DNA of 64,000 nt from Sphingobacteriaceae bacterium (GCA_947460875.1 CANHGR010000006.1:1-64000), one strand, 5' to 3'; counted from the first letter of the stretch, positions 2,974 to 18,476 are shown. The notes: generated from the sequence alone by a model not told the origin. Numbers and translations are program-made.

Positions 2974-3385
2974 CTAAGCAGATTGCTTTAGACAGACACG
3001 CAAACTGCGTATATCTGAACCGCAAATTTAAGTATTTCCTGCTAATGCAAAAGATAAATATATGTTTATATCGTATATCTTGTTTCTAAATGTAGAGTGC
3101 GTGGAAAAATTTCTACAATTACTGGGTAATTAGGAAAATTTATAATCATTTTAAACGTTTTTTAATTAACCAAGAAGGAGCTCGATTCGGATAAAAAAAC
3201 GATTTTAGAGTGTAATGGCAGTTTTTTTCTAACGTTATTATTGTTATTTTGGGGAAGTATTTTGACGAATTTCGTGCTCTTGAATTCAATGTCTCATTAT
3301 TTTAAAAGACCAGCTTTTTTTAGAAAATATAAGCTGCAAATTTGAAACGAAATATTAGAAGCTTGCATAGTTTTTGTACATCCAT
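2974..3385. other. Non-coding A+T-rich interval
   Basis: About 410 bp between tRNA-Arg (leftward) and the small gene at 3386 (rightward). It must hold both promoters. It is rich in A and T runs, but I see no convincing ORF, repeat or stable hairpin. Confidence 0.5.
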
Positions 3386-3598
3386 ATGAAAAAACAAATC
3401 CTTATTGTTGATGCATTCGCAAAAGCTGATGGAATAATGAGTCGTTCACGCTCTTCGGGAAGCATCTATGTAAAAATAGCATACATGGGCAACCAAATCG
3501 CTCTATCTACTGCAAATTCAGCTAAAATATCAGCTAAGACAGGCTTTCTGATTGCGAAATCTACCCTCGAAGAACTACTGACAAAAAAGATTGAATAG
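3386..3598 (+). CDS. Small hypothetical protein, about 70 aa
   Basis: A short protein beginning MKKQILIVDAFAKADGIMSR. An upstream in-frame ATG at 3374 exists, but the MKKQ start looks more natural. There is no signal peptide or membrane helix; Ser-rich in the middle (RSRSSGS), with an acidic and Lys-rich end (LEELLTKKIE). It ends only 9 bp before the Wzc-like gene, which suggests translational coupling and a shared operon. I do not recognise the family. Confidence 0.5.
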   Translation: MKKQILIVDAFAKADGIMSRSRSSGSIYVKIAYMGNQIALSTANSAKISAKTGFLIAKSTLEELLTKKIE

Positions 3599-3607
3599 AT
3601 ACTGTAA

Positions 3608-5815
3608 ATGGAAGAGCTAAGGAAATTTATTGGTCTGCTTTGGAGAAACCGTTTGGCGATGATCATCGTGCCTTTAATTACGATGATGATTACCTTTTAC
3701 ATAGTGCGCAATTTACCAGACGTATATGACGCTCCTACTCAAATTGCGACAGGCATTGTGGATGAAACTCAACACATAGCTTTTGCTGATGTAAGTGGTG
3801 TCCTTCAGGATTCAAGAATTAATCAGAAATTTACAAACCTTATTGAAACGATTAAATCAAGAAATTTACTTAATCAAGTTTCCTATCAACTCATTCTACA
3901 TGATCTAACATCGCCAAGCCCATTTAAGGAATATAGCCCGTTATTAAAAGAGGTGGCCTTAAGTAAACATGACATAAATCATTTAGTTGAGGTATATACA
4001 AAGAACTATCAAAAAGCAGAAGGTCTCGATTTAAGAGATCCGGATCAAGAAAGGTTGGCGAGAGTTTTAGCCTCTATGGGATATGACGCTGAATCGATAT
4101 TGTATAATCTTTCCGTGTTTAGAATTGGCTCCAGCGATTTTATTTTTGTTGATTTTGAATCTGATGGGGCTGAGCTTTCAGCATTTGTTGTTAATCAGAT
4201 TTGCAAAGAATTTATAAAAGATTATACCCGCCTGATCAGGCAAAATCAAGTTGCTTCTGTTACTTTTCTGCAACGAACAATGCAGGAAAAACTGGACACT
4301 TTGAACCATAGAGTTAGACGATTAAGCGACTATAAGATCAAAAACAGAATTCTCGACTTAACCGAACAGTCCTCACAATTGCTGAACGAGACTGCAACAT
4401 ATAGCGCTCAGGAACAAGACTTAGAAAGACAGGTTGCTTCACTTGAAGGAGCGATAAGCAGCATAGACCGCAAGTTGGATCCGCAAGAAAGACGTTATGC
4501 CGAATCAGCAATGACATCGAGCAATCTCGAGGCCCCTAGGATAAGAAACGACATTCAATCTTTATATGATAAATATATCCAGAGTAATTTTGATGCGCAA
4601 TATAAAAAGTCGATTGATTCGTTGCAGGATACTCTAAGAACCGAAATAAATGAACTGAGCGGCAAAGAAACCATTAGTCCACTTAGCACGCAGCGAGACC
4701 TAATTCAACAAAAATTAAACCTTCAGATGCAGCGGGATCTTGCCACATATGGACTTGGCTCAGTAAAACGACATCTAACTAATATCGGTAAAAATTACGA
4801 AAAACTAGTACAGCACGACGCTGTTATTTCATCTCTCGACCGAGATATTGATATCGTTCAGCAAGAGTATCAAGATTTATTAAGCCAGTTTAATCAAGTT
4901 AATATGGAATCGCAGTTTCCTATTAACCTAAGACAGGTTCAACTAGCAATGCCGGGTGCACCTTTGCCTTCTAAAAAAATGCCTTTGGTAATACTCAGCG
5001 GTATGGCGAGCGGCGCTATTTACATAATGTTGTTTTTTATAATTTTCTTCTTTGACGATACGATCAGGAAACCTGCAGAATTAGCTTTAAAGACAAGAAT
5101 GCCGGTTCTCGGATACTTGAATTTGGTTGATAAATCAACGCTTGACCTAAAAGAAATTTGGAAAAACCTGCACGAGACTCCAGAGATAATGGAATTTAAA
5201 AAGCAGCTCAGATCAACACGTTTTGAAGTAACGAGAGAGCTAGCACGAAGCTCAAATTTATGTCAAACATTAAGCATTACGAGCCTAAGTGAACGTGAGG
5301 GAAAAACTCTGATCTCAGCCTGTATCGCCTATACCTATGCGATGATCAATAAGAAAGTCCTCTTGATAGATGGCAATTTCGACAATCCATCGATTACCAA
5401 GAACTCAAATACCCAAATTTTTATAGAAGATTATTTTGAAACCGGTGAAATTGAGGGCTTAAATTTCAACTCAGGTATTATAGTAATGGGAAATCATGGC
5501 GGTGATAAATCATTACTTGAAATTTGCGACGAAAATCTAATTCATACAAGACTTAATAACCTAAAAAAGCAATTTGATATTATTCTTGTCGAAACCCCTT
5601 CTTTAAATTCTCTAAACAAAGCAAAAGAATGGATTTTATTTACAGACAAAACGTTAAGCGTATTCGAAGCCAATCAATCTCTTAATGAAGTTAAGAAACA
5701 ACATATAAACTATTTTTCAAGTATTAACGGACAATTTATTGGTTGGATATTGAATAAAGTGAAATCAGATAGCAAAACGACAGAAAAAGTTGCCCATACA
5801 ACTGTCTTAGAATAA
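3608..5815 (+). CDS. Wzc-like polysaccharide chain-length protein with degenerate tyrosine-kinase domain
   Basis: A 735-residue inner-membrane protein of the Wzz/Wzc class, which controls export chain length of surface polysaccharide. One transmembrane helix lies near residues 15-35 and another near 460-480. Between them is a long periplasmic coiled-coil region, and a proline-containing segment (LPSKKMP) precedes the second helix, as in Wzc. The cytoplasmic part resembles a BY-kinase, but key motifs are altered. Walker A is SEREGKT rather than GEGKS/T, Walker A' is LLIDGNFDNP rather than the usual DxDxR pattern, and the Walker B-like strand is ILVETPS. The C-terminal tail (ending TEKVAHTTVLE) has no tyrosine cluster. 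It is therefore probably not an autophosphorylating kinase. Gene 5816 begins on the base after its stop. Confidence 0.8.
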   Translation: MEELRKFIGLLWRNRLAMIIVPLITMMITFYIVRNLPDVYDAPTQIATGIVDETQHIAFADVSGVLQDSRINQKFTNLIETIKSRNLLNQVSYQLILHDLTSPSPFKEYSPLLKEVALSKHDINHLVEVYTKNYQKAEGLDLRDPDQERLARVLASMGYDAESILYNLSVFRIGSSDFIFVDFESDGAELSAFVVNQICKEFIKDYTRLIRQNQVASVTFLQRTMQEKLDTLNHRVRRLSDYKIKNRILDLTEQSSQLLNETATYSAQEQDLERQVASLEGAISSIDRKLDPQERRYAESAMTSSNLEAPRIRNDIQSLYDKYIQSNFDAQYKKSIDSLQDTLRTEINELSGKETISPLSTQRDLIQQKLNLQMQRDLATYGLGSVKRHLTNIGKNYEKLVQHDAVISSLDRDIDIVQQEYQDLLSQFNQVNMESQFPINLRQVQLAMPGAPLPSKKMPLVILSGMASGAIYIMLFFIIFFFDDTIRKPAELALKTRMPVLGYLNLVDKSTLDLKEIWKNLHETPEIMEFKKQLRSTRFEVTRELARSSNLCQTLSITSLSEREGKTLISACIAYTYAMINKKVLLIDGNFDNPSITKNSNTQIFIEDYFETGEIEGLNFNSGIIVMGNHGGDKSLLEICDENLIHTRLNNLKKQFDIILVETPSLNSLNKAKEWILFTDKTLSVFEANQSLNEVKKQHINYFSSINGQFIGWILNKVKSDSKTTEKVAHTTVLE

Positions 5816-6137: not shown

Positions 6138-7853
6138 ATGAAACAAAAATTGTTCGTCATCGGGGTAGACTATGGCTCAGATTCTGTTCGCTCTGTACTA
6201 GTTAACGCACGTAACGGCGAGGAAGTAGCTTCTTCAGTTCATCACTACTCGCGATGGCGAGACGGACTTTTTTGCCTACCATCAAAAAATCAATTTAGGC
6301 AACACCCTTTAGATTATATCGAAGGCCTCGAAAAGACAATTAAACAGTGCATTGAGCAGGCAGGCGGTGCATCTATCGCAAAACTAATTAAAGGCATTTC
6401 TGTTGATACCACCGGTTCTACGCCCGTTGCTGTAAATAAGACCGGCACTCCCCTATCTTTGCTTCCCGGTTTTGAAAATAATCCTAACGGGATGTTTGTG
6501 CTCTGGAAAGATCACACCTCAATCAAAGAAGCTGCAGAAATTAATGAACATGCAACTAAATTTGAAACCAATTACCTCAAATATGTAGGTGGAATCTATT
6601 CTACAGAATGGTTCTGGGCCAAGTTGCTTCATGTACTAAGGGAAGATCAACAAGTATTTAATGCCTGCTACTCTTGGGTAGAACATTGTGATTGGATTCC
6701 TTTTCTCCTAACGGGAGGAAACGATATTACAAAAATGAAACGCGGACGATGCTCGGCCGGTCACAAAGCCTTATGGGCTGAAGAATTTGGCGGCCTACCG
6801 CCTGAGGAATTTTTCTCTTCTCTAGATCCATTGCTGAAAGGCTTCCGTGAACGCTTATTTACAGAAACTTACACTGCAGACGAGGCTGCCGGCAAACTAA
6901 GCAAAGAGTGGGCAGAACGCCTTGGCCTGTCGGAAGATGTGATGGTTGGTGTGGGCGCCTTTGACGCGCATATGGGCGCTGTTGGCGGACAAATAGAACC
7001 ATACCATTTAAGTAAAGTAATGGGCACCTCTACCTGTGATATTCTCGTTGCACCAACAGAAGATATTCAGGGCAAATTGATTAAAGGCATTTGCGGACAA
7101 GTGAACGGTTCCGTAATTCCCGGCATGATGGGTCTGGAAGCGGGCCAATCAGCCTTTGGCGATACCTATGCTTGGTTTAGAAATGTTTTGGCATGGCCAC
7201 TAACTTCGCTTTTGCATAAATCTTCAATAATCGATCAAGAAACTGCCATCGCCCTAAAGGAGGAAATGATTGATCTAATTATTCCCGAATTAAGCTTGGA
7301 AGCAGCAAAGCTTCCGTTGGATGAACACAGCGAGCTTGCTATCGACTGGTTAAACGGTAGGCGTACGCCGGATGCAAATCAAGAGCTTAAAGCTGCCATT
7401 TCTGGCCTTGGACTCGGAAGCGATGCTCCTAGAATTTTTCAATCTCTTGCAGAAGCTACTTGTTTTGGCGCTAAAAATATCGTGGATCGTTTTATAGAAG
7501 AAGGCATCCCCGTAAAGGGAATAATTGGAATCGGTGGTGTTGCAAAAAAATCGCCCTACGTCATGCAAATGATGTCTGATATCCTTGGCATGCCAATCCG
7601 TATTCATCAGTTCAAACATACTTGTGCCTTGGGCGCAGCAATGTTTGCAGCCGTGGTAGCGGGGATCTACCCCACTGTAGAAGAAGCCATGGCAGCGATG
7701 GGTAGAGGCTTTGATGTAGCGTATTACCCTGAAAATAGAAACGCGGATCTTTATGCTAAACGCTTCAGGCAATACCGCGAACTTGGAAATTTTGTTGAAC
7801 AACAAATTAATACAAAATCACATCCTGTAAAGAAAGAAGAACGAGTATCATGA
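6138..7853 (+). CDS. araB: Ribulokinase
   Basis: Phosphorylates L-ribulose to L-ribulose 5-phosphate, the second step of L-arabinose use. The 571-aa length fits the ribulokinase branch of FGGY kinases. The N-terminal ATPase-fold phosphate loop VIGVDYGSDSVRSVLV is present. Further signatures are GISVDTTGSTPV, the substrate region LWKDHTS, and GVGAFDAHMGAVGGQI. The C-terminal half has GIIGIGGVAKKSPYVMQMMSD, matching the AraB nucleotide-binding loop. The gene overlaps araD by 4 bp (ATGA). It opens a four-gene operon with araD, araA and a sodium/sugar symporter; no AraR or AraC regulator lies beside it. Confidence 0.95.
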   Translation: MKQKLFVIGVDYGSDSVRSVLVNARNGEEVASSVHHYSRWRDGLFCLPSKNQFRQHPLDYIEGLEKTIKQCIEQAGGASIAKLIKGISVDTTGSTPVAVNKTGTPLSLLPGFENNPNGMFVLWKDHTSIKEAAEINEHATKFETNYLKYVGGIYSTEWFWAKLLHVLREDQQVFNACYSWVEHCDWIPFLLTGGNDITKMKRGRCSAGHKALWAEEFGGLPPEEFFSSLDPLLKGFRERLFTETYTADEAAGKLSKEWAERLGLSEDVMVGVGAFDAHMGAVGGQIEPYHLSKVMGTSTCDILVAPTEDIQGKLIKGICGQVNGSVIPGMMGLEAGQSAFGDTYAWFRNVLAWPLTSLLHKSSIIDQETAIALKEEMIDLIIPELSLEAAKLPLDEHSELAIDWLNGRRTPDANQELKAAISGLGLGSDAPRIFQSLAEATCFGAKNIVDRFIEEGIPVKGIIGIGGVAKKSPYVMQMMSDILGMPIRIHQFKHTCALGAAMFAAVVAGIYPTVEEAMAAMGRGFDVAYYPENRNADLYAKRFRQYRELGNFVEQQINTKSHPVKKEERVS

Positions 7854-8548
7854 GCCAATATCAATTCATCAAACAAAGTGCTTATGAAGCAAACATGCAA
7901 CTCCCAAAACTTGGCCTGGTAGTATTCACTTTCGGCAACGTAAGTGCAGCAGACCGCGCACTCGGAGTTTTTGCGATTAAGCCCAGCGGAGTGCCCTATG
8001 AAGAGCTTACGCCGGATAAAATGGTGATCGTCGATTTTGAAGGGAAAACTGTTGAAGGTACTCTCCGCCCCTCTTCTGACACGCTAACACACGCCGTATT
8101 ATACAAGCATTGGGAAAAGATTAACGGCATCGTGCATACCCATTCTACCTACGCTACGGCCTGGGCGCAAAGTCAGCGCGATATCCCTATTTACGGAACT
8201 ACACATGCAGATCATTTAACGGTTGATATCCCCTGCGCAGCGCCGATGGAAGATGCCATGATTCGCGGAAATTATGAGCATGAAACCGGCTTTCAGATTA
8301 TGAATGCCTTTACAGACAAGGGATTGAGATACGAAGACGTAGAAATGATTCTGGTAGGAAATCATGCCCCCTTTACTTGGGGCAAAACAGCAGAAAAAGC
8401 AGTTTACAATAGCGCTGTACTTGAATCTGTTGCACAGATGGCTTACCTTACAGAACGGATTAATCCATCGGCGCCTAGACTGCAAGAATCACTCATCAAA
8501 AAACATTTTGAAAGAAAACACGGACCCGATTCTTATTACGGTCAGTAA
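7850..8548 (+). CDS. araD: L-ribulose-5-phosphate 4-epimerase
   Basis: Converts L-ribulose 5-phosphate to D-xylulose 5-phosphate, delivering arabinose carbon to the pentose phosphate pathway. The 232-aa protein is a class II aldolase/epimerase. It shows the substrate loop AIKPSGVPYEEL, the zinc ligands in GIVHTHSTYATAWAQ (His-x-His), TTHADH, and the downstream conserved NHAPFTWGK. Its start overlaps the araB stop (ATGA), and araA follows after 24 bp, so all three are expected on one mRNA. Confidence 0.95.
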   Translation: MSQYQFIKQSAYEANMQLPKLGLVVFTFGNVSAADRALGVFAIKPSGVPYEELTPDKMVIVDFEGKTVEGTLRPSSDTLTHAVLYKHWEKINGIVHTHSTYATAWAQSQRDIPIYGTTHADHLTVDIPCAAPMEDAMIRGNYEHETGFQIMNAFTDKGLRYEDVEMILVGNHAPFTWGKTAEKAVYNSAVLESVAQMAYLTERINPSAPRLQESLIKKHFERKHGPDSYYGQ

Positions 8549-11911: not shown

Positions 11912-12310
11912 GTGGGCTTTTTAGGGCCTTATTTCCTTTACTCAATTAAGTCATTGCTCCGTGCTCCTTCCATTTTACTCCCTATATTGCATGAGCGTCT
12001 CTCAATAATTCTAAATGGAATTAAACCAAATAAATATCTTTTCGAAGGGCAATACGGGGGACAATACAGCGGCCGAAGTTTAGCCCAAGTATTTGACAGA
12101 TGTTTAAAAGCCACCGGAATTAAGAAAGACGTCTCCTTGCATTCATTGAGGCATAGCTTCGCGACGCATTTATTAGAGAGCGGCACAGAAATTCGTTATA
12201 TACAAGAGCTCCTTGGCCATAGCAGTCCGAAAACTACCATGATCTATACCCACGTTAGCACTAAAGCCATCTCAACTATTAGCAGTCCGTTTGATGACCT
12301 CGAAACCTAA
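11912..12310 (+). pseudogene. Tyrosine recombinase, C-terminal catalytic remnant
   Basis: Only the C-terminal part of a XerC/D-like integrase remains. From about residue 33 it reads as a recombinase, with [18 protein letters not shown], the Arg-containing box [15 protein letters not shown], the [16 protein letters not shown] box with His and the nucleophile Tyr, and a tail ending SPFDDLET. The first about 32 residues look unrelated and the core-binding domain and first catalytic Arg are missing, so it cannot be a full enzyme. A 36-codon frame overlaps its end (12294-12404), with no recognisable product. It marks the left edge of the accessory island. Confidence 0.8.
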
Positions 12311-12411
12311 AAAAATAAAGAGCGTAAGCTATTGCAGTATTTACGCCACAACCCAATTTGAAACCGAAGAATTAGAGCGTATATTAGAGGGGGATACGCT
12401 TTAATAAACAA

Positions 12412-12424
12412 GTCGGGCGTAATT
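12412..12424 (+). other. Cassette-boundary-like core site
   Basis: GTCGGGCGTAATT closely matches GTTAAGCATAATT at 15598 (pattern GTYRRGCRTAATT). It resembles the 3' core (GTTRRRY) of integron cassettes, with one departure at the third base. It lies upstream of the VIT1-like gene. The relation is inferred. Confidence 0.35.
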
Positions 12425-12575
12425 TGATAAAACATTGCGATCTATATTTTTATGACCACGGTCATTTATTTCTAAACACGTAATGCTCACCTTTAAAAAA
12501 TATTCATCAGATTCAAATTCAATTATTATAGGTTCCGTTAATCGTTATTTTACGACAACTAACAGCTACAAGACA

Positions 12576-13277
12576 ATGATAACAATTGACAACTATTTAG
12601 ACAGCCATTATATACACCGAAGCAACTGGTTGAGAGCTGCTGTTCTTGGAGCAAATGACGGAATAATTTCAATTTCAAGTCTTGCTATTGGAGTTGCTGC
12701 GGCAAGTTCGACAAGAGAGCCGATTGTTTTAGCAACAGTCGCAGGACTTGTTGCGGGTGCTTTATCTATGGCAGCAGGCGAATATGTTTCGGTAAGTTCG
12801 CAAACGGACACCGAAAAAGCCGACATTGAAAGAGAGATGAAGGAGCTTAAAGAAATGCCCAAAGAAGAGCTAAATATATTAGCTCAAATCTATGAGAGAC
12901 GTGGACTAAAAAAAGAGACAGCTATGCAAGTAGCCATTGAATTGACAGAGAAAGACGCTTTGGGCACACACATAAGAGATGAATTAGGTATTAACGAAAT
13001 TAGTCAAGCAAATCCTATACAAGCAGCGATAGCATCGGGAGCATCTTTTACAGTTGGCGGTGTTATGCCATTATTGACAGTTCTTTTTGCACCAGTAGGA
13101 GGAATGGAATATTGGCTATATGGTTTTACTATAATATTTCTTGTGATTTTGGGAGCAACATCAGCAAAAACAGGCGGTTCAAGCATTAAAAAAGCTATTA
13201 GTCGCATTACTATTTGGGGGACAATTGCAATGGGTTTATCAGCACTTGTAGGTTATCTCTTTGGAGTAAATGTTTAA
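12576..13277 (+). CDS. VIT1/CCC1-family membrane transporter
   Basis: A protein of about 233 aa of the VIT family (Fe2+/Mn2+ transport in plants and yeast; mostly uncharacterised in bacteria). The family start SHYIHRSNWLRAAVLGANDG is visible, followed by a membrane helix (IISISSLAIGVAAAS), SMAAGEYVSVSSQTDTEKAD, a charged cytosolic metal-binding-type segment, and C-terminal helices ending GYLFGVNV. I chose the ATG at 12576 (MITIDNYLDSHYIH) because the 31 residues encoded before it, from 12483, are unlike the family. It is followed after 18 bp by a small membrane protein gene. Base composition is lower in G+C than the ara operon, consistent with transfer. Confidence 0.85.
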   Translation: MITIDNYLDSHYIHRSNWLRAAVLGANDGIISISSLAIGVAAASSTREPIVLATVAGLVAGALSMAAGEYVSVSSQTDTEKADIEREMKELKEMPKEELNILAQIYERRGLKKETAMQVAIELTEKDALGTHIRDELGINEISQANPIQAAIASGASFTVGGVMPLLTVLFAPVGGMEYWLYGFTIIFLVILGATSAKTGGSSIKKAISRITIWGTIAMGLSALVGYLFGVNV

Positions 13278-13295
13278 TTTTTAAAATACAATAAT

Positions 13296-13790
13296 ATGAA
13301 CGGAGCACATTGGCATTTAGTGGTAAATCATCTACCAATCATTTTCCCCATTGTGGGAGTAATCGTAATGATTACAGGACTTATTTCAAAATCAGAAGTT
13401 GTTAAACGAACGGCATTTATGATTTTTATTTTAGGTACGTTGGCTGCAATTGCAGCAATGACAACAGGCGAAGGAGCAGAAGATGTGGTAGAAAAAATAA
13501 GCGGAGTTACTGAGGATTATATTAAAAGCCACGAGGAAACGGCTGAAAAATTCGCTTTACTTTCCTATATTTTAGGAGGTATTTCTTTACTTGGGCTTTG
13601 GACAAGTTTTAAACAGAAACCCTTTTCTTTAATTGTAGCAATTGTCACATTGGTGTTTGCAATAGTGGCACTATTCTTTGCCAAACAAACAGGTACAACA
13701 GGCGGAGAAATTAGACATACAGAAATTAGAAGTGGGAATAATATTCCTGCGACAGAAAACGGTAACAGCGAAAAAAGCAATGACGACTAA
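13296..13790 (+). CDS. DUF2231-like small membrane protein
   Basis: A 164-aa membrane protein with four hydrophobic segments and a conserved N-terminus (MNGAHWHLVVNHLPIIFPIV) in which HWHLVVNHLP resembles DUF2231-type proteins, some of which are thought to bind heme. The middle has a charged loop (EDVVEKISGVTEDYIKSHEE) and the tail is hydrophilic. It lies 18 bp after the VIT1-like gene and probably shares its transcript. A role in metal or redox handling is inference from that neighbour only. Confidence 0.65.
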   Translation: MNGAHWHLVVNHLPIIFPIVGVIVMITGLISKSEVVKRTAFMIFILGTLAAIAAMTTGEGAEDVVEKISGVTEDYIKSHEETAEKFALLSYILGGISLLGLWTSFKQKPFSLIVAIVTLVFAIVALFFAKQTGTTGGEIRHTEIRSGNNIPATENGNSEKSNDD

Positions 13791-13791
13791 A

Positions 13792-13804
13792 AACTACGCC
13801 TAAC
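13792..13804 (+). other. attC-like 5' arm after the VIT1/DUF2231 pair
   Basis: AACTACGCCTAAC begins one base after the stop codon. GCCTAAC fits the RYYYAAC core of attC sites, and the stretch is nearly the same as AACTACGCACAAC after the stop at 16189. The matching 3' arm is absent, because a gene fragment follows directly. Confidence 0.4.
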
Positions 13805-13811
13805 ATGGGCT

Positions 13812-13994
13812 AAAAAGACAGCGGAAGCATTAAAGAAATTATATTCTAATCTCCCGACGCAGAAGCTTTTGGAAATTGTTGACAACAAGTTTGACTATAC
13901 CGACCTTGCTGTACAAATTGCGTTGTCAGCGCTCTCAACGCGACAAGTGAATACGAAAGCGTTCGTATACTCAATAGTTGTGACATTCACTTAG
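13812..13994 (+). pseudogene. Gene fragment, hypothetical protein
   Basis: A frame without a start codon that reads as real protein: EALKKLYSNLPTQKLLEIV, then DNKFDYTDLAVQIALSALS, ending in a less convincing tail. The pattern (LLEIV-N--DY--LAV-IA---L) resembles the N-terminal part of widespread small Bacteroidota proteins of unknown function. It starts right after the attC-like arm, so it may be the disrupted target or a remnant of another cassette. Confidence 0.4.
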
Positions 13995-14017
13995 CGTATC
14001 AAATAATATCAGAACAA

Positions 14018-14046
14018 AAAAGCCGCCCATGATATGGGCGGCTTTT
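14018..14046 (-). terminator. Intrinsic terminator (bidirectional) for the esterase at 14066
   Basis: A 13-bp stem (AAAAGCCGCCCAT with its complement) around a 3-nt loop, with A/T runs on both sides. It lies just past the stop of the minus-strand esterase and could also stop plus-strand transcripts from the island. Confidence 0.85.
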
Positions 14047-14065
14047 GTTATAAATAATCAATTGC

Positions 14066-15649
<1,584 letters not shown>

Positions 15650-15883
15650 ATGTCAATTTATAATCAGATAAAAAAGAAAAAAACGACAAGCGAAATTTTG
15701 AAAATTAAACGATTTCTCTCGATGACAGTCTTACTATTAGGCTCGTTACTGATAACTTATATGGTTATCGTTGAAAACGAACTTGGTGCAATACCATTAT
15801 TTCTGATTATTACTGGAATAATATGGTTCGTGATCAATGAAATACAAATTAACAACTATATTCAGAAAGCAAAAGTTGATTGA
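15650..15883 (+). CDS. Small membrane protein, unknown
   Basis: A 77-aa protein with a Lys-rich N-terminus (MSIYNQIKKKKTTSEILKIK), then two hydrophobic segments (MTVLLLGSLLITYMVIV and IPLFLIITGIIWFVI) separated by a short NELGA turn, ending hydrophilic. It resembles a two-helix hairpin with both ends in the cytoplasm. It lies 21 bp before another small membrane gene, so the pair is probably one transcript, and both sit between two attC-like boundaries. Family not recognised; very A+T rich. Confidence 0.55.
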   Translation: MSIYNQIKKKKTTSEILKIKRFLSMTVLLLGSLLITYMVIVENELGAIPLFLIITGIIWFVINEIQINNYIQKAKVD

Positions 15884-15904
15884 TTTAGTCAATAAGTGTA
15901 TCTT

Positions 15905-16189
15905 ATGAAAGATAAAAGATTAATTGCTATACTATTGTCAGTATTAATGATTTTGCTTATTCCGTTTGTTGCGATGCAATTCACGAATCAGGTAAATTGG
16001 AATATTGCTGATTTTATAGTAATGGGTGTTTTGTTACTAGTAACTGGATTATTATGTGAACTTGTGTTTAGACGAGTTAAAAGCGTGACAAATAGAATAA
16101 TTATTTGTGGAATCATCTTATTTGCTTTATTTCTTGTTTGGGCAGAATTTGCAGTTGGAATATTTGGGACACCATTTGCTGGTGATTAA
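15905..16189 (+). CDS. Small membrane protein, unknown
   Basis: A 94-aa protein with three predicted transmembrane helices (ILLSVLMILLIPFVAMQF, FIVMGVLLLVTGLLCELVF, IIICGIILFALFLVWAEFAV) and a short tail ending GTPFAGD. I prefer the ATG at 15905 (MKDKRLIAILL) over an in-frame ATG nine bases earlier. Similar short proteins occur across Bacteroidota with no known function. An attC-like folded element follows the stop within 15 bp. Confidence 0.55.
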   Translation: MKDKRLIAILLSVLMILLIPFVAMQFTNQVNWNIADFIVMGVLLLVTGLLCELVFRRVKSVTNRIIICGIILFALFLVWAEFAVGIFGTPFAGD

Positions 16190-16200
16190 AATAAATAACT

Positions 16201-16336
16201 ACGCACAACATCATGCATAGTACATTTGGCGGATAGTACTAATTACGAGGGTGTAACCTAAAATAAACTTCGTAGCGGTTTGATAGGTTCGTGCTTCGAA
16301 TCGCCAAACGTCACCATACACGAAAACGTTAAAAGC
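16201..16336 (+). other. attC-like imperfect inverted repeat
   Basis: The element begins ACGCACAAC and ends GTTAAAAGC. The outer AAC/GTT and inner TTTGGCG (16235 onward) and CGCCAAA (about 16303-16309) pair, with weaker complementarity between them, giving two arms of about 35 nt around a spacer. Size (about 135 nt), position just after a stop codon and the AAC...GTT ends resemble an integron attC site, but the core boxes are not canonical. Whether it recombines is not known. Confidence 0.45.
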
Positions 16337-16378
16337 AAGCCTAAACGAAAACAATAAACATTCAAACCAATAAACAAA

Positions 16379-17146
16379 ATGACACTAATACCAATTATCG
16401 GAATCATTATCGCAATACTACTATCAGGACTTCGTATTGCACAAGAATATCAGCGTGGAGTTGTATTCAGACTTGGACGTTTTCAATCAATTAAAGGACC
16501 TGGACTTTATTGGATTATACCGCTAATTGACCGACAACAAAAGGTTGACATTAGAACTAAAACCGTTGACCTTGAACAACAAGAGACAATTACCAAAGAC
16601 AGCGTAACAATTAAAGTAAATGCAGTTCTTTGGTTTAAGATTACAAATCCTGAATATGCCATCATTAAAATAGCAGACTACAACAAAGCTGTTTATCAGT
16701 TTTCTGTGACCGCTTTACGGAACATTATTGGGCAACATTCTCTTGACGAAGTTTTGAGAGAGAGGGAACAGATAAACGGAACACTTCAAAAAATCGTGGA
16801 CGCTACAACTGAACCTTGGGGAATTAAAATTGAAATGGTAGAGATGAAGGATGTTGAAATTCCAGAAGCGATGCAACGAGCGATGGCAAGAGAGGCGGAA
16901 GCCATTAGAGAGAAAAGAGCAAGAATTGTCAAAGCCGAAGCTGAATTAGAAGCATCTATAAAGTTGACACAAGGAGCAAAAGAAATGGAAGGAAGTCCAA
17001 TTGCACTTGAACTTAGACGAATGCAAATGCTTTCCGAAATTGGTATTGACAACAACACGACGACCATTGTTCTAGTGCCATCAGACTTTACAAACGCTGC
17101 AAAAAGTTTTACTGAATTAGTTAATAAAAAGAAACTTGACGAATAA
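16379..17146 (+). CDS. Slipin (SPFH/band 7, stomatin-like protein)
   Basis: A 255-aa protein with one N-terminal membrane anchor (LIPIIGIIIAILLSGLRIAQ) and an SPFH domain. Stomatin-type signatures are EYQRGVVFRLGRF, GPGLYWIIPLID, DSVTIKVNAVLWFKI, VTALRNIIGQHSLDEVL and WGIKIEMVEMKDVEIPEAMQ. The C-terminal region is a coiled coil (EAEAIREKRARIVKAEAELE). Stomatins scaffold membrane microdomains and often pair with NfeD proteases, but no nfeD is adjacent. It lies between attC-like elements in the accessory island, and its low G+C fits acquisition. Confidence 0.9.
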   Translation: MTLIPIIGIIIAILLSGLRIAQEYQRGVVFRLGRFQSIKGPGLYWIIPLIDRQQKVDIRTKTVDLEQQETITKDSVTIKVNAVLWFKITNPEYAIIKIADYNKAVYQFSVTALRNIIGQHSLDEVLREREQINGTLQKIVDATTEPWGIKIEMVEMKDVEIPEAMQRAMAREAEAIREKRARIVKAEAELEASIKLTQGAKEMEGSPIALELRRMQMLSEIGIDNNTTTIVLVPSDFTNAAKSFTELVNKKKLDE

Positions 17147-17154
17147 GCGACATA

Positions 17155-17182
17155 CTGCTAACAGCACCTATGCAATAGGCGG
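17155..17182 (+). other. attC-like 5' arm after slipin gene
   Basis: CTGCTAACAGCACC followed by TATGCAATAGGCGGG, starting 9 bp after the slipin stop. It parallels the arm after 16189 (CGCACAAC...TGCATA...TTTGGCGG). No 3' arm is seen before the converging gene at 17223. Confidence 0.35.
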
Positions 17183-17222
17183 GATTTCGTTCTCAGCAGA
17201 TAGTTTTGTGGTTGCCGAAAGT

Positions 17223-18047
17223 TCAGTTCTCCGCATCAACCTTTGTGCTGAAAATTGCCGCCTTCGCCAAGCCCGAAACCGGTAAACGCATTTTTCTGAT
17301 CCCGATTAAAACAAAAATAAATAAACTGTACATGATAAAAAACGGAACGATATATTCCACCAGGTTTAGGGGCAGCATAATGGCTATAATCAGCAGCTGA
17401 AAGCCCAGTCCGTAGATAGAAAGCATGGTCATAAACCAGTTTGGAAACGTTCTGACTTTATAGGCCCCCCGATCTAAAAAGTGAATTATTTTATCAAAAG
17501 GGCCATAAACTATCGAATAAATAGTAAACAACATAGCTACTGATTTTTGACTTTCGCCGGGGAAAGCTTTGGGTGCTTTGTATTCAAAAACCTTGCTGGT
17601 CGAATCGGCACCCACAGATTTATTTCTCAAAATCACATAGTAGTAATTATACAAAGTGCCTTGTAATTGAATAGAAATAAACGCAACGATAGTTAACAAC
17701 AGCGTAGTTTCAGACACATAACAAATAGCCATGAAAAGCAAAAAGTTCAGGATGATATCAAAAATACTATCCAGATATCTTCCCGTATAAGATGGTGAGT
17801 TTTTCGCTCTTGCCAGTTCGCCATCGGCGGCATCAATAACTGATTTCAGAATAATAAAAAACCCGGCTAACCAATACTTGCCTTCTAAAATGCAATAGAT
17901 AGCCGTTAATCCCACCATACCAAAAAGCAAGGTTACATGGATGGAAGTTAGCCGCGTATTTTTAAATTGGTTGGCAAATACTTTCGCAAACGGCCTTCCG
18001 TAATCAGATAAATCAAAAAAACCATCAGGAGTAGCAAGTTTAGACAT
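17223..18047 (-). CDS. CDP-alcohol phosphatidyltransferase family enzyme
   Basis: An integral membrane enzyme that joins a CDP-linked lipid or alcohol to an acceptor alcohol in phospholipid synthesis. The full signature D-x2-D-G-x2-A-R-x8-G-x3-D-x3-D is present: DAADGELAR followed by G, D and D at the right spacing (TGRYLDSIFD). About six hydrophobic helices surround it. I use the ATG at 18047 (MSKLATPDGFFDLS); nine further codons upstream look spurious. The specific acceptor (inositol, glycerol phosphate, serine or other) cannot be told. Its 3' end abuts the attC-like arm of the island, so the last residues may have been altered by the insertion. Confidence 0.85.
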   Translation of the reverse strand: MSKLATPDGFFDLSDYGRPFAKVFANQFKNTRLTSIHVTLLFGMVGLTAIYCILEGKYWLAGFFIILKSVIDAADGELARAKNSPSYTGRYLDSIFDIILNFLLFMAICYVSETTLLLTIVAFISIQLQGTLYNYYYVILRNKSVGADSTSKVFEYKAPKAFPGESQKSVAMLFTIYSIVYGPFDKIIHFLDRGAYKVRTFPNWFMTMLSIYGLGFQLLIIAIMLPLNLVEYIVPFFIMYSLFIFVLIGIRKMRLPVSGLAKAAIFSTKVDAEN

Positions 18048-18476
18048 GTAGCAAAAAGTATAAGAGCCGGGCACTATAGCTGGCTTGTAAAAGTACTACA
18101 TCTGCCAACCTTGCGCAAGCATGTTTTACTTGTTCGGAAAAGCATGGTGAATTTAACTACAAAGTCCACAAACAACTAATTGGTTGAGAAAGCACACGAA
18201 CGCTCGGAGTAACTTGTTTAGGTTGCAGTTCTGGGCAGCCGGACGAAGAATGAAAAAAGACTGTGCTTTTCAACCGCGTTTAAAGCAGTCTAATCACTAA
18301 TTTTCTCCAGTTTTAACTTCAGCCCAGGAACCTAAACTTTTCTGAGATAAAGAAAACGCAACCTATCGATGTATACAAAAAATAGGCCTGCGGGTGGTTT
18401 AACAAAATGCTGTATCGTACTTGAAAATATAGGGATTTATGACTAGGTCATTCAGTCTAGATCGCCCATTTTTTAA

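Follow-up and report, generated by a model that had tools for sequence, protein, structure and literature searches.

The 64,000-nucleotide stretch of Sphingobacteriaceae bacterium DNA analysed here (GCA_947460875.1, CANHGR010000006.1:1-64000; hereafter the window) contains, at positions 11912-17295, what is very probably an integron in decay, of a kind that is widespread in the Bacteroidota. It comprises the remnant of a tyrosine recombinase (the integrase), an attI-like site, and three cassettes with complete or partial attC-like sites. Members of this integrase family are termed patchless, as they lack the insertion, or patch, specific to the integron integrase IntI. Comparisons between genomes establish the linkage of the attC-like sites to this family, the attI-like motif, the uniform orientation of the sites, the self-complementary cassette ends, and the recurrence of a cassette with matching borders. 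A preliminary description of the stretch had read a VIT1/DUF2231 gene pair, two small membrane protein genes, and a slipin gene as cassettes of an integron-like system poorly described in Bacteroidota, and this reading is borne out, as the sites recur in arrays by a shared recombinase.

attC-like sites and their linkage to one integrase family

Eight sites picked by eye in four arrays yielded a structure, with changes on both sides at 16 of the 18 predicted pairs, and, after trimming, a first covariance model (R1). R1 led to 35 sites in 19 integrase loci, from which a second model (R2) was built with the window sequence excluded. Applied to the 64 kb window, R2 gives two sites and no more, both on the plus strand and inside the borders drawn earlier: 16197-16343 (40.7 bits, E=4.2e-8) and 17150-17295 (27.0 bits, E=1.3e-4). 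Since the 35 sites behind R2 come from other genomes and the model matches exactly these two places, the cassette borders stand above chance. Called with R2, the two sites lie 806 bp apart, within the spacing that defines a cluster of attC sites lacking integron integrases (CALIN; at least two attC sites less than 4 kb apart). The isolated half-sites at 13792 and 15598 were not detected by R2, and R1 failed on the window sites, including with its filters off. A simple inverted-core scan gave nothing over shuffled levels because it paired both cores of one site, while the complementarity is between a cassette's own two ends. Over the rest of the window's genome, R2 finds one additional site (G000:C14:1327-1474, locus L054). 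This site scores 76.5 bits and follows a 204-aa open reading frame (ORF) on another contig, beside metH; its right core GTT is lost, leaving a single stranded cassette.

R2 sites were found in 101 of 201 genomes of the window's order. They occur in all 43 genomes with the integrase family compared with 58 of the 158 others (p=4.7e-16), and at least five sites are present in 37 of the 43 compared with 13 of the 158. In a sample of the phylum, sites were found in 143 of 297 Bacteroidota genomes and 83 of 141 genera, and sites are present in every one of the 34 genomes whose integrase match reaches 225 bits. Per-genome site counts are lower bounds, as the best candidates only were scored; the thresholds for the integrase group were set after the score lists were seen, and the negative control consists of genomes without hits, from the same phylum. 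The recurrence that the preliminary description had proposed to look for is thus present, with sites found after unrelated genes, in arrays, and adjoining a shared recombinase.

Contrary to the earlier statement that the island has no integron integrase, a truncated relative of this shared recombinase lies directly upstream, at 11912-12310. A Pfam search aligns it with positions 78-170 of the 172 in profile PF00589 (E=3.5e-22). The remnant keeps the catalytic H, R, H, and Y but has lost the first R and K along with the N-terminal half; its stop lies ~100 bp upstream of the first border. At 50-66% identity, it matches the C-terminal part of array-linked integrases, whose ORFs are mostly ~350-570 aa in the 201 genomes of the order. 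Judged as an integrase, the window copy is incomplete, with 132 C-terminal residues only. No intact integrase of the patchless family was found elsewhere in the window's genome, and the genome's two other tyrosine recombinases both belong to the Xer clade.

Individual members of the family also merit description. The L045 integrase (3207-4265) reads LGR in the catalytic region where its relatives read LGH, and may be impaired, though its array looks intact. A complete copy, with integrase, attI-like site, and seven clear R2 sites, is found on a 66-kb Chryseobacterium plasmid (L056; NZ_CP041688.1), so the platform can be plasmid-borne.

The attI-like site

Downstream of the stops of intact relatives lies a common motif, roughly TATAWAYRAGTTRGCRGYAAT, mostly preceded by an imperfect inverted repeat and usually with a small unrelated gene immediately after it in the same direction. 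At the same position, the window carries the counterpart AATAAACAAGTCGGGCGTAATT. When scored with a matrix made from 25 downstream flanks, including two or three doubtful automatic picks, 12398-12424 ranks third among ~128,000 window positions, at 11.9 bits compared with a median of 23 for intact sites. The attI of an integron platform thus has a likely equivalent in this conserved motif, found 3′ of most intact relatives and degenerate in the window; that it would function as attI is suggested by its sequence and placement. Downstream of IntI and Xer genes, the motif gave only single chance-like matches. In L046 and L048, the integrase has beside it a second, unlike tyrosine recombinase and then an IS91-like transposase reading frame, located directly at the attI-like site or close to it; this pair is perhaps an element targeting that site.

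Array anatomy and a probable signature of excised circles

Within array loci, 236 sites were read. Among the best 150 sites, all 31 multi-site loci have their sites in a single orientation, as in the one-orientation cassette array of an integron platform. The longest ORF lies on the strand of the site in 87 of 95 cassettes, and the distance from the stop codon to the last base of the left core has a median of 20 nt. The cassette genes of L045 are mutually unrelated; one encodes a Tpt1/KptA RNA 2′-phosphotransferase and most have no Pfam family.

If crossover occurs in G/TT and cassettes are excised as circles, the opening bases of a cassette are expected to be complementary to the last core of the same cassette rather than to that of the neighboring one. 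In a set of 100 cassettes, the start matched the complement of its own end at a mean of 5.43 of 8 positions. Shuffling the ends among all cassettes lowered this to 3.17±0.12, and shuffling them only inside each locus lowered it to 3.96±0.14; the two cores of a single site matched at 3.34. An earlier version of the test with 33 cassettes gave the same picture. An A.C mismatch at position 11 is retained in 98% of cassettes, including window cassettes 1 and 2. This own-end complementarity would be the signature of excised circles, and cassette circles joined at G/TT are predicted. Window cassettes 1, 2, and 3 score 6, 4, and 4 of 8 and therefore do not carry the circle argument by themselves; start and own end match in this sense at 10 of 13 positions in cassette 1 and 9 of 13 in cassette 2.

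Group II introns (Rfam RF02001, RF00029) are present in L038 (two copies, in the ~6530-6873 and 7830-8225 region) and in L056 (15719-17580). They are encoded opposite to the cassette strand and interrupt the left core of two attC-like sites after TAA, much like the attC targeting by group IIC introns in known integrons.

The window island and its probable decay

All of the border sequences and inner arms given in the preliminary description were found in place. The copies after stops are AACTACGCCTAAC at 13792-13804, AACTACGCACAAC at 16197-16209, and CTGCTAAC at 17155-17162; those leading genes are GTCGGGCGTAATT from 12412, GTTAAGCATAATT from 15598, and GTTAAAAGC at 16328-16336. The inner arms of the 16201-16336 element are TTTGGCG (16225-16231) and CGCCAAA (16302-16308). 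The island is organized as follows.

11912..12310, plus strand: remnant of the patchless tyrosine recombinase (integrase); PF00589, C-terminal 132 aa
12398..12424, plus strand: attI-like site GCTTTAATAAACAAG^TCGGGCGTAATT, 101 nt past the integrase stop; motif and position as in intact relatives
12412..13804, plus strand: cassette 1, VIT1-family and DUF2231-like genes; closes with left core AACTACGCCTAAC, right half of attC lost
12483..13277, plus strand: VIT1-family membrane protein gene; homology begins near 12591, VIT1 E=5.7e-67
13296..13790, plus strand: DUF2231-like membrane protein gene; DUF2231 match below cut-off, E=0.0037
13805..15597, no strand assigned: non-cassette stretch, short ORF remnant and then esterase gene (14066-15361, minus strand); PF00756 E=2.4e-15
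15598..16327, plus strand: cassette 2, two small membrane protein genes (15650-15883, 15905-16189) and most of attC; R2 site, start GTTAAGCATAATT, own end AACTACGCACAAC
16197..16343, plus strand: attC-like site of cassette 2; R2, left core 16197-16209, right core from 16328
16328..17162, plus strand: cassette 3, slipin/SPFH gene (16379-17146); PF01145 E=6.7e-40, left core CTGCTAAC at end
17150..17295, plus strand: attC-like site of cassette 3; R2, 3′ end overlaps CDP-alcohol transferase gene

The attC past the DUF2231 gene is cut after its left core and is followed by the opposite-strand esterase. Between the cassettes, at 13805-15597, the R2 scan gives no cassette site, and the esterase is not a cassette on any evidence here. 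It has a Gly/Ala/Pro-rich low-complexity stretch at 14540-14660, within the region matched to the esterase domain. Just past the cut attC, 13805-13990 holds a short open stretch (KKTAEALKKLYSNLPTQKLLEIVDNKFDYTDLAVQIAL) that resembles a gene fragment and is possibly a further lost cassette. At the other end of the island, the 3′ end of the cassette 3 attC lies within the CDP-alcohol transferase gene of the chromosome (17223-18074, minus strand).

The sequence features of the window copy thus suggest an integron in decay. As the N-terminal half of the integrase is lost, the sites are eroded, and the genome has no other copy of the family, the cassettes are stranded unless some integrase acts on the array in trans.

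Window cassettes in other genomes

Relatives of the slipin with 81-97% amino-acid identity occur across Bacteroidota orders. In L078, L082, L088, L093, and L095, the gene lies between matching cores with different DNA outside, and in L082 it lies within an array. The borders of the slipin cassette coincide with homology breakpoints in other genomes. R2 sites were found at only 4 of the 80 loci that have a close slipin; since most close slipins lie outside such arrays, the gene has ordinary chromosomal copies as well. A VIT1 gene with 75% identity is flanked by two R2 sites in L261. No array context was found for relatives of the DUF2231 gene, and a search of 40 relatives for the CDP-alcohol transferase gene that flanks the island gave no match.

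Relation to IntI, Xer, and known systems

Six intact relatives score 178-195 bits against TIGR02249, below its 265-bit cut-off, and align with the model in two segments that leave its middle unmatched; the window remnant scores 91 bits. In alignment, the patch, located between the catalytic K and HxxR motifs, is absent, and the same gap appears against 2a3v. The distance between the K motif and HxxR is 65-73 residues in the eight patchless proteins in which it is measurable, compared with 107 in 15 IntI and 69-73 in 11 Xer proteins. The XerC and XerD profiles (TIGR02224 and TIGR02225) also fail, at 152-192 bits against cut-offs of ~330, and with NF040815 the patchless proteins reach 194-218 bits against a 220-bit cut-off. 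A relative with 62% identity on a Chryseobacterium plasmid is labelled by NCBI "site-specific tyrosine recombinase/integron integrase."

A tree was made from the patchless proteins, IntI1, canonical Bacteroidota IntI, XerC/D, and two archaeal XerA, dropping columns filled in less than 30% of rows (the patch included). Patchless proteins and IntI are grouped with a support of 100, the patchless proteins form one group (99/92), and the Xer rows form a separate clade. In an alternative tree, with three long-branch rows kept and XerA left out, the patchless rows are paraphyletic to IntI. Given this difference, the patchless family may be either sister or ancestor of IntI. Canonical IntI above the TIGR02249 cut-off is found in 57 of 198 sampled phylum genomes, almost all outside the window's class. 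These patch-containing genes (L158-L187), common in other lineages of the phylum, are hardly mentioned in the integron literature consulted.

The system would thus work in the manner of an integron, as a variant that the formal definition of IntI does not cover, since its integrase fails the formal tests. With integrons and CALINs, it shares the cassette organization, the G/TT core with AAC/GTT arms, the own-end complementarity, the uniform orientation, the hairpin attC, and a tyrosine recombinase in the tree clade of IntI. It differs from integrons in that its integrase is without the IntI-specific insertion and below the 265-bit cut-off, in that attI lies 3′ of an integrase co-directional with the cassettes, and in that its attC sites, of ~147 nt, fit another model. 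Chromosomal integrons of Treponema, whose integrase is described as intI whereas that here is patchless, are set apart by description only. In an integron-like subgroup of simple tyrosine recombinases, the insertion is not fully conserved, which resembles the patchless integrase, but the accessible parts of that account tie no cassette system to insertion-less members (PMC8138268). A 2026 paper describes a 140-bp attC-like 3′ element of aph(3′)-IVb in Riemerella anatipestifer, where, as here, a gene is followed by an attC-like folded element, with homology-free integration; the available parts of the paper describe no integrase or attI, and the likeness is drawn from the description and not from R2 (PMC13148043). 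With IntegronFinder 2.0, Bacteroidetes were reported to be nearly devoid of integrons, the one complete example being in Salinibacter ruber (PMC9024848). The literature searched, in which subscription papers and preprints were thinly covered, yielded no account of a patchless integron in Bacteroidota.

Alternative explanations

Several observations weigh against a decayed integron of this type. In the window's order, 58 genomes carry sites, though mostly few, while no integrase was detected in them. The attC-like fold proposed for 16201-16336 in the preliminary description does form on the bottom strand, but the hairpin does not exceed shuffled DNA in stability (z=-0.44, with 63 of 200 shuffles as good) and is missed by R1; for comparison, z is -4.9 for an L045 site and -2.2 for the third site of the window's genome. 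The opposite-strand esterase interrupts the island. The window's genus is represented in the sampled sets by G000 only, so that no strain pair with gain or loss is available here. The IntI patch is described as essential to integron function (PMC8138268, PMC9668308), and the window-type integrase is without it. Finally, recombination, its single-strand form, and the position of the crossover are all deduced from sequence.

Three other explanations have been considered. The cassettes could be moved in trans by a canonical patch-containing IntI, with the patchless recombinase a mere neighbor. This is highly unlikely: canonical IntI does occur in the phylum at the frequency given above (57/198), and genomes G201, G205, and G215 have both kinds, but no R2 site was seen within 1.5 kb of any of 30 canonical loci, whereas many patchless loci have one at that distance. 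Moreover, only one sampled genome of the window's class has canonical IntI, yet sites are abundant, and sites occur in every genome with a patchless integrase. Less probable again is that the arrays elsewhere are real while the genes of the window arrived by ordinary gene transfer, their cassette likeness being partly chance. The half-sites at 13792 and 15598 missed by R2, the interrupting esterase, and the presence of R2 sites in only 4 of 80 close-slipin loci would fit such a history, but R2 matches at both claimed places and nowhere else in 64 kb, the adjoining remnant belongs to the array-linked integrase family, and a slipin cassette with the same borders is found in at least five other genomes.

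The least probable of the three explanations holds that the elements are terminator-like or MITE-like (miniature inverted-repeat transposable element) hairpins that accumulate after genes and are not recombination sites. The elements do lie close behind stop codons and fold into hairpins, and slipin relatives negative for R2 exist. However, such hairpins give no reason to expect that the start of a cassette should be complementary to the end of the same cassette, that the elements should be tightly linked to a single recombinase, that every array should run in one direction, or that homology should break at the core.

Proposed mechanism and significance

For the integron-like system, the following route is proposed. 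In intact copies, a patchless integrase is followed by a same-strand attI-like site ~60-130 bp past its stop, and then by the cassette array. Each cassette consists of one or two genes and a terminal attC-like element, mostly of ~147 nt, starting right after the stop codon. The integrase, presumably acting on the folded bottom strand, would excise cassettes as circles, with crossover probably between G and TT of the right core, and the excised cassettes could then be inserted at attI or at another attC.

These data would also fit a phylum-wide class of Bacteroidota integrons in which a patch-free integrase recombines hairpin attC sites, which is sister or ancestral to all known IntI, and whose cassette pool is missed by standard tools because these require the patch and another attC model; we consider this broader proposal moderately likely. 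If the system is active, about half of the sampled Bacteroidota genomes hold cassettes uncounted by current surveys, and a known route for gene flow would operate in a major phylum. The system may likewise account for the reported uptake of genes without homology in Riemerella. Testable questions follow as to how a folded attC is recognized without the domain that reads extrahelical bases, and whether IntI gained its patch later.

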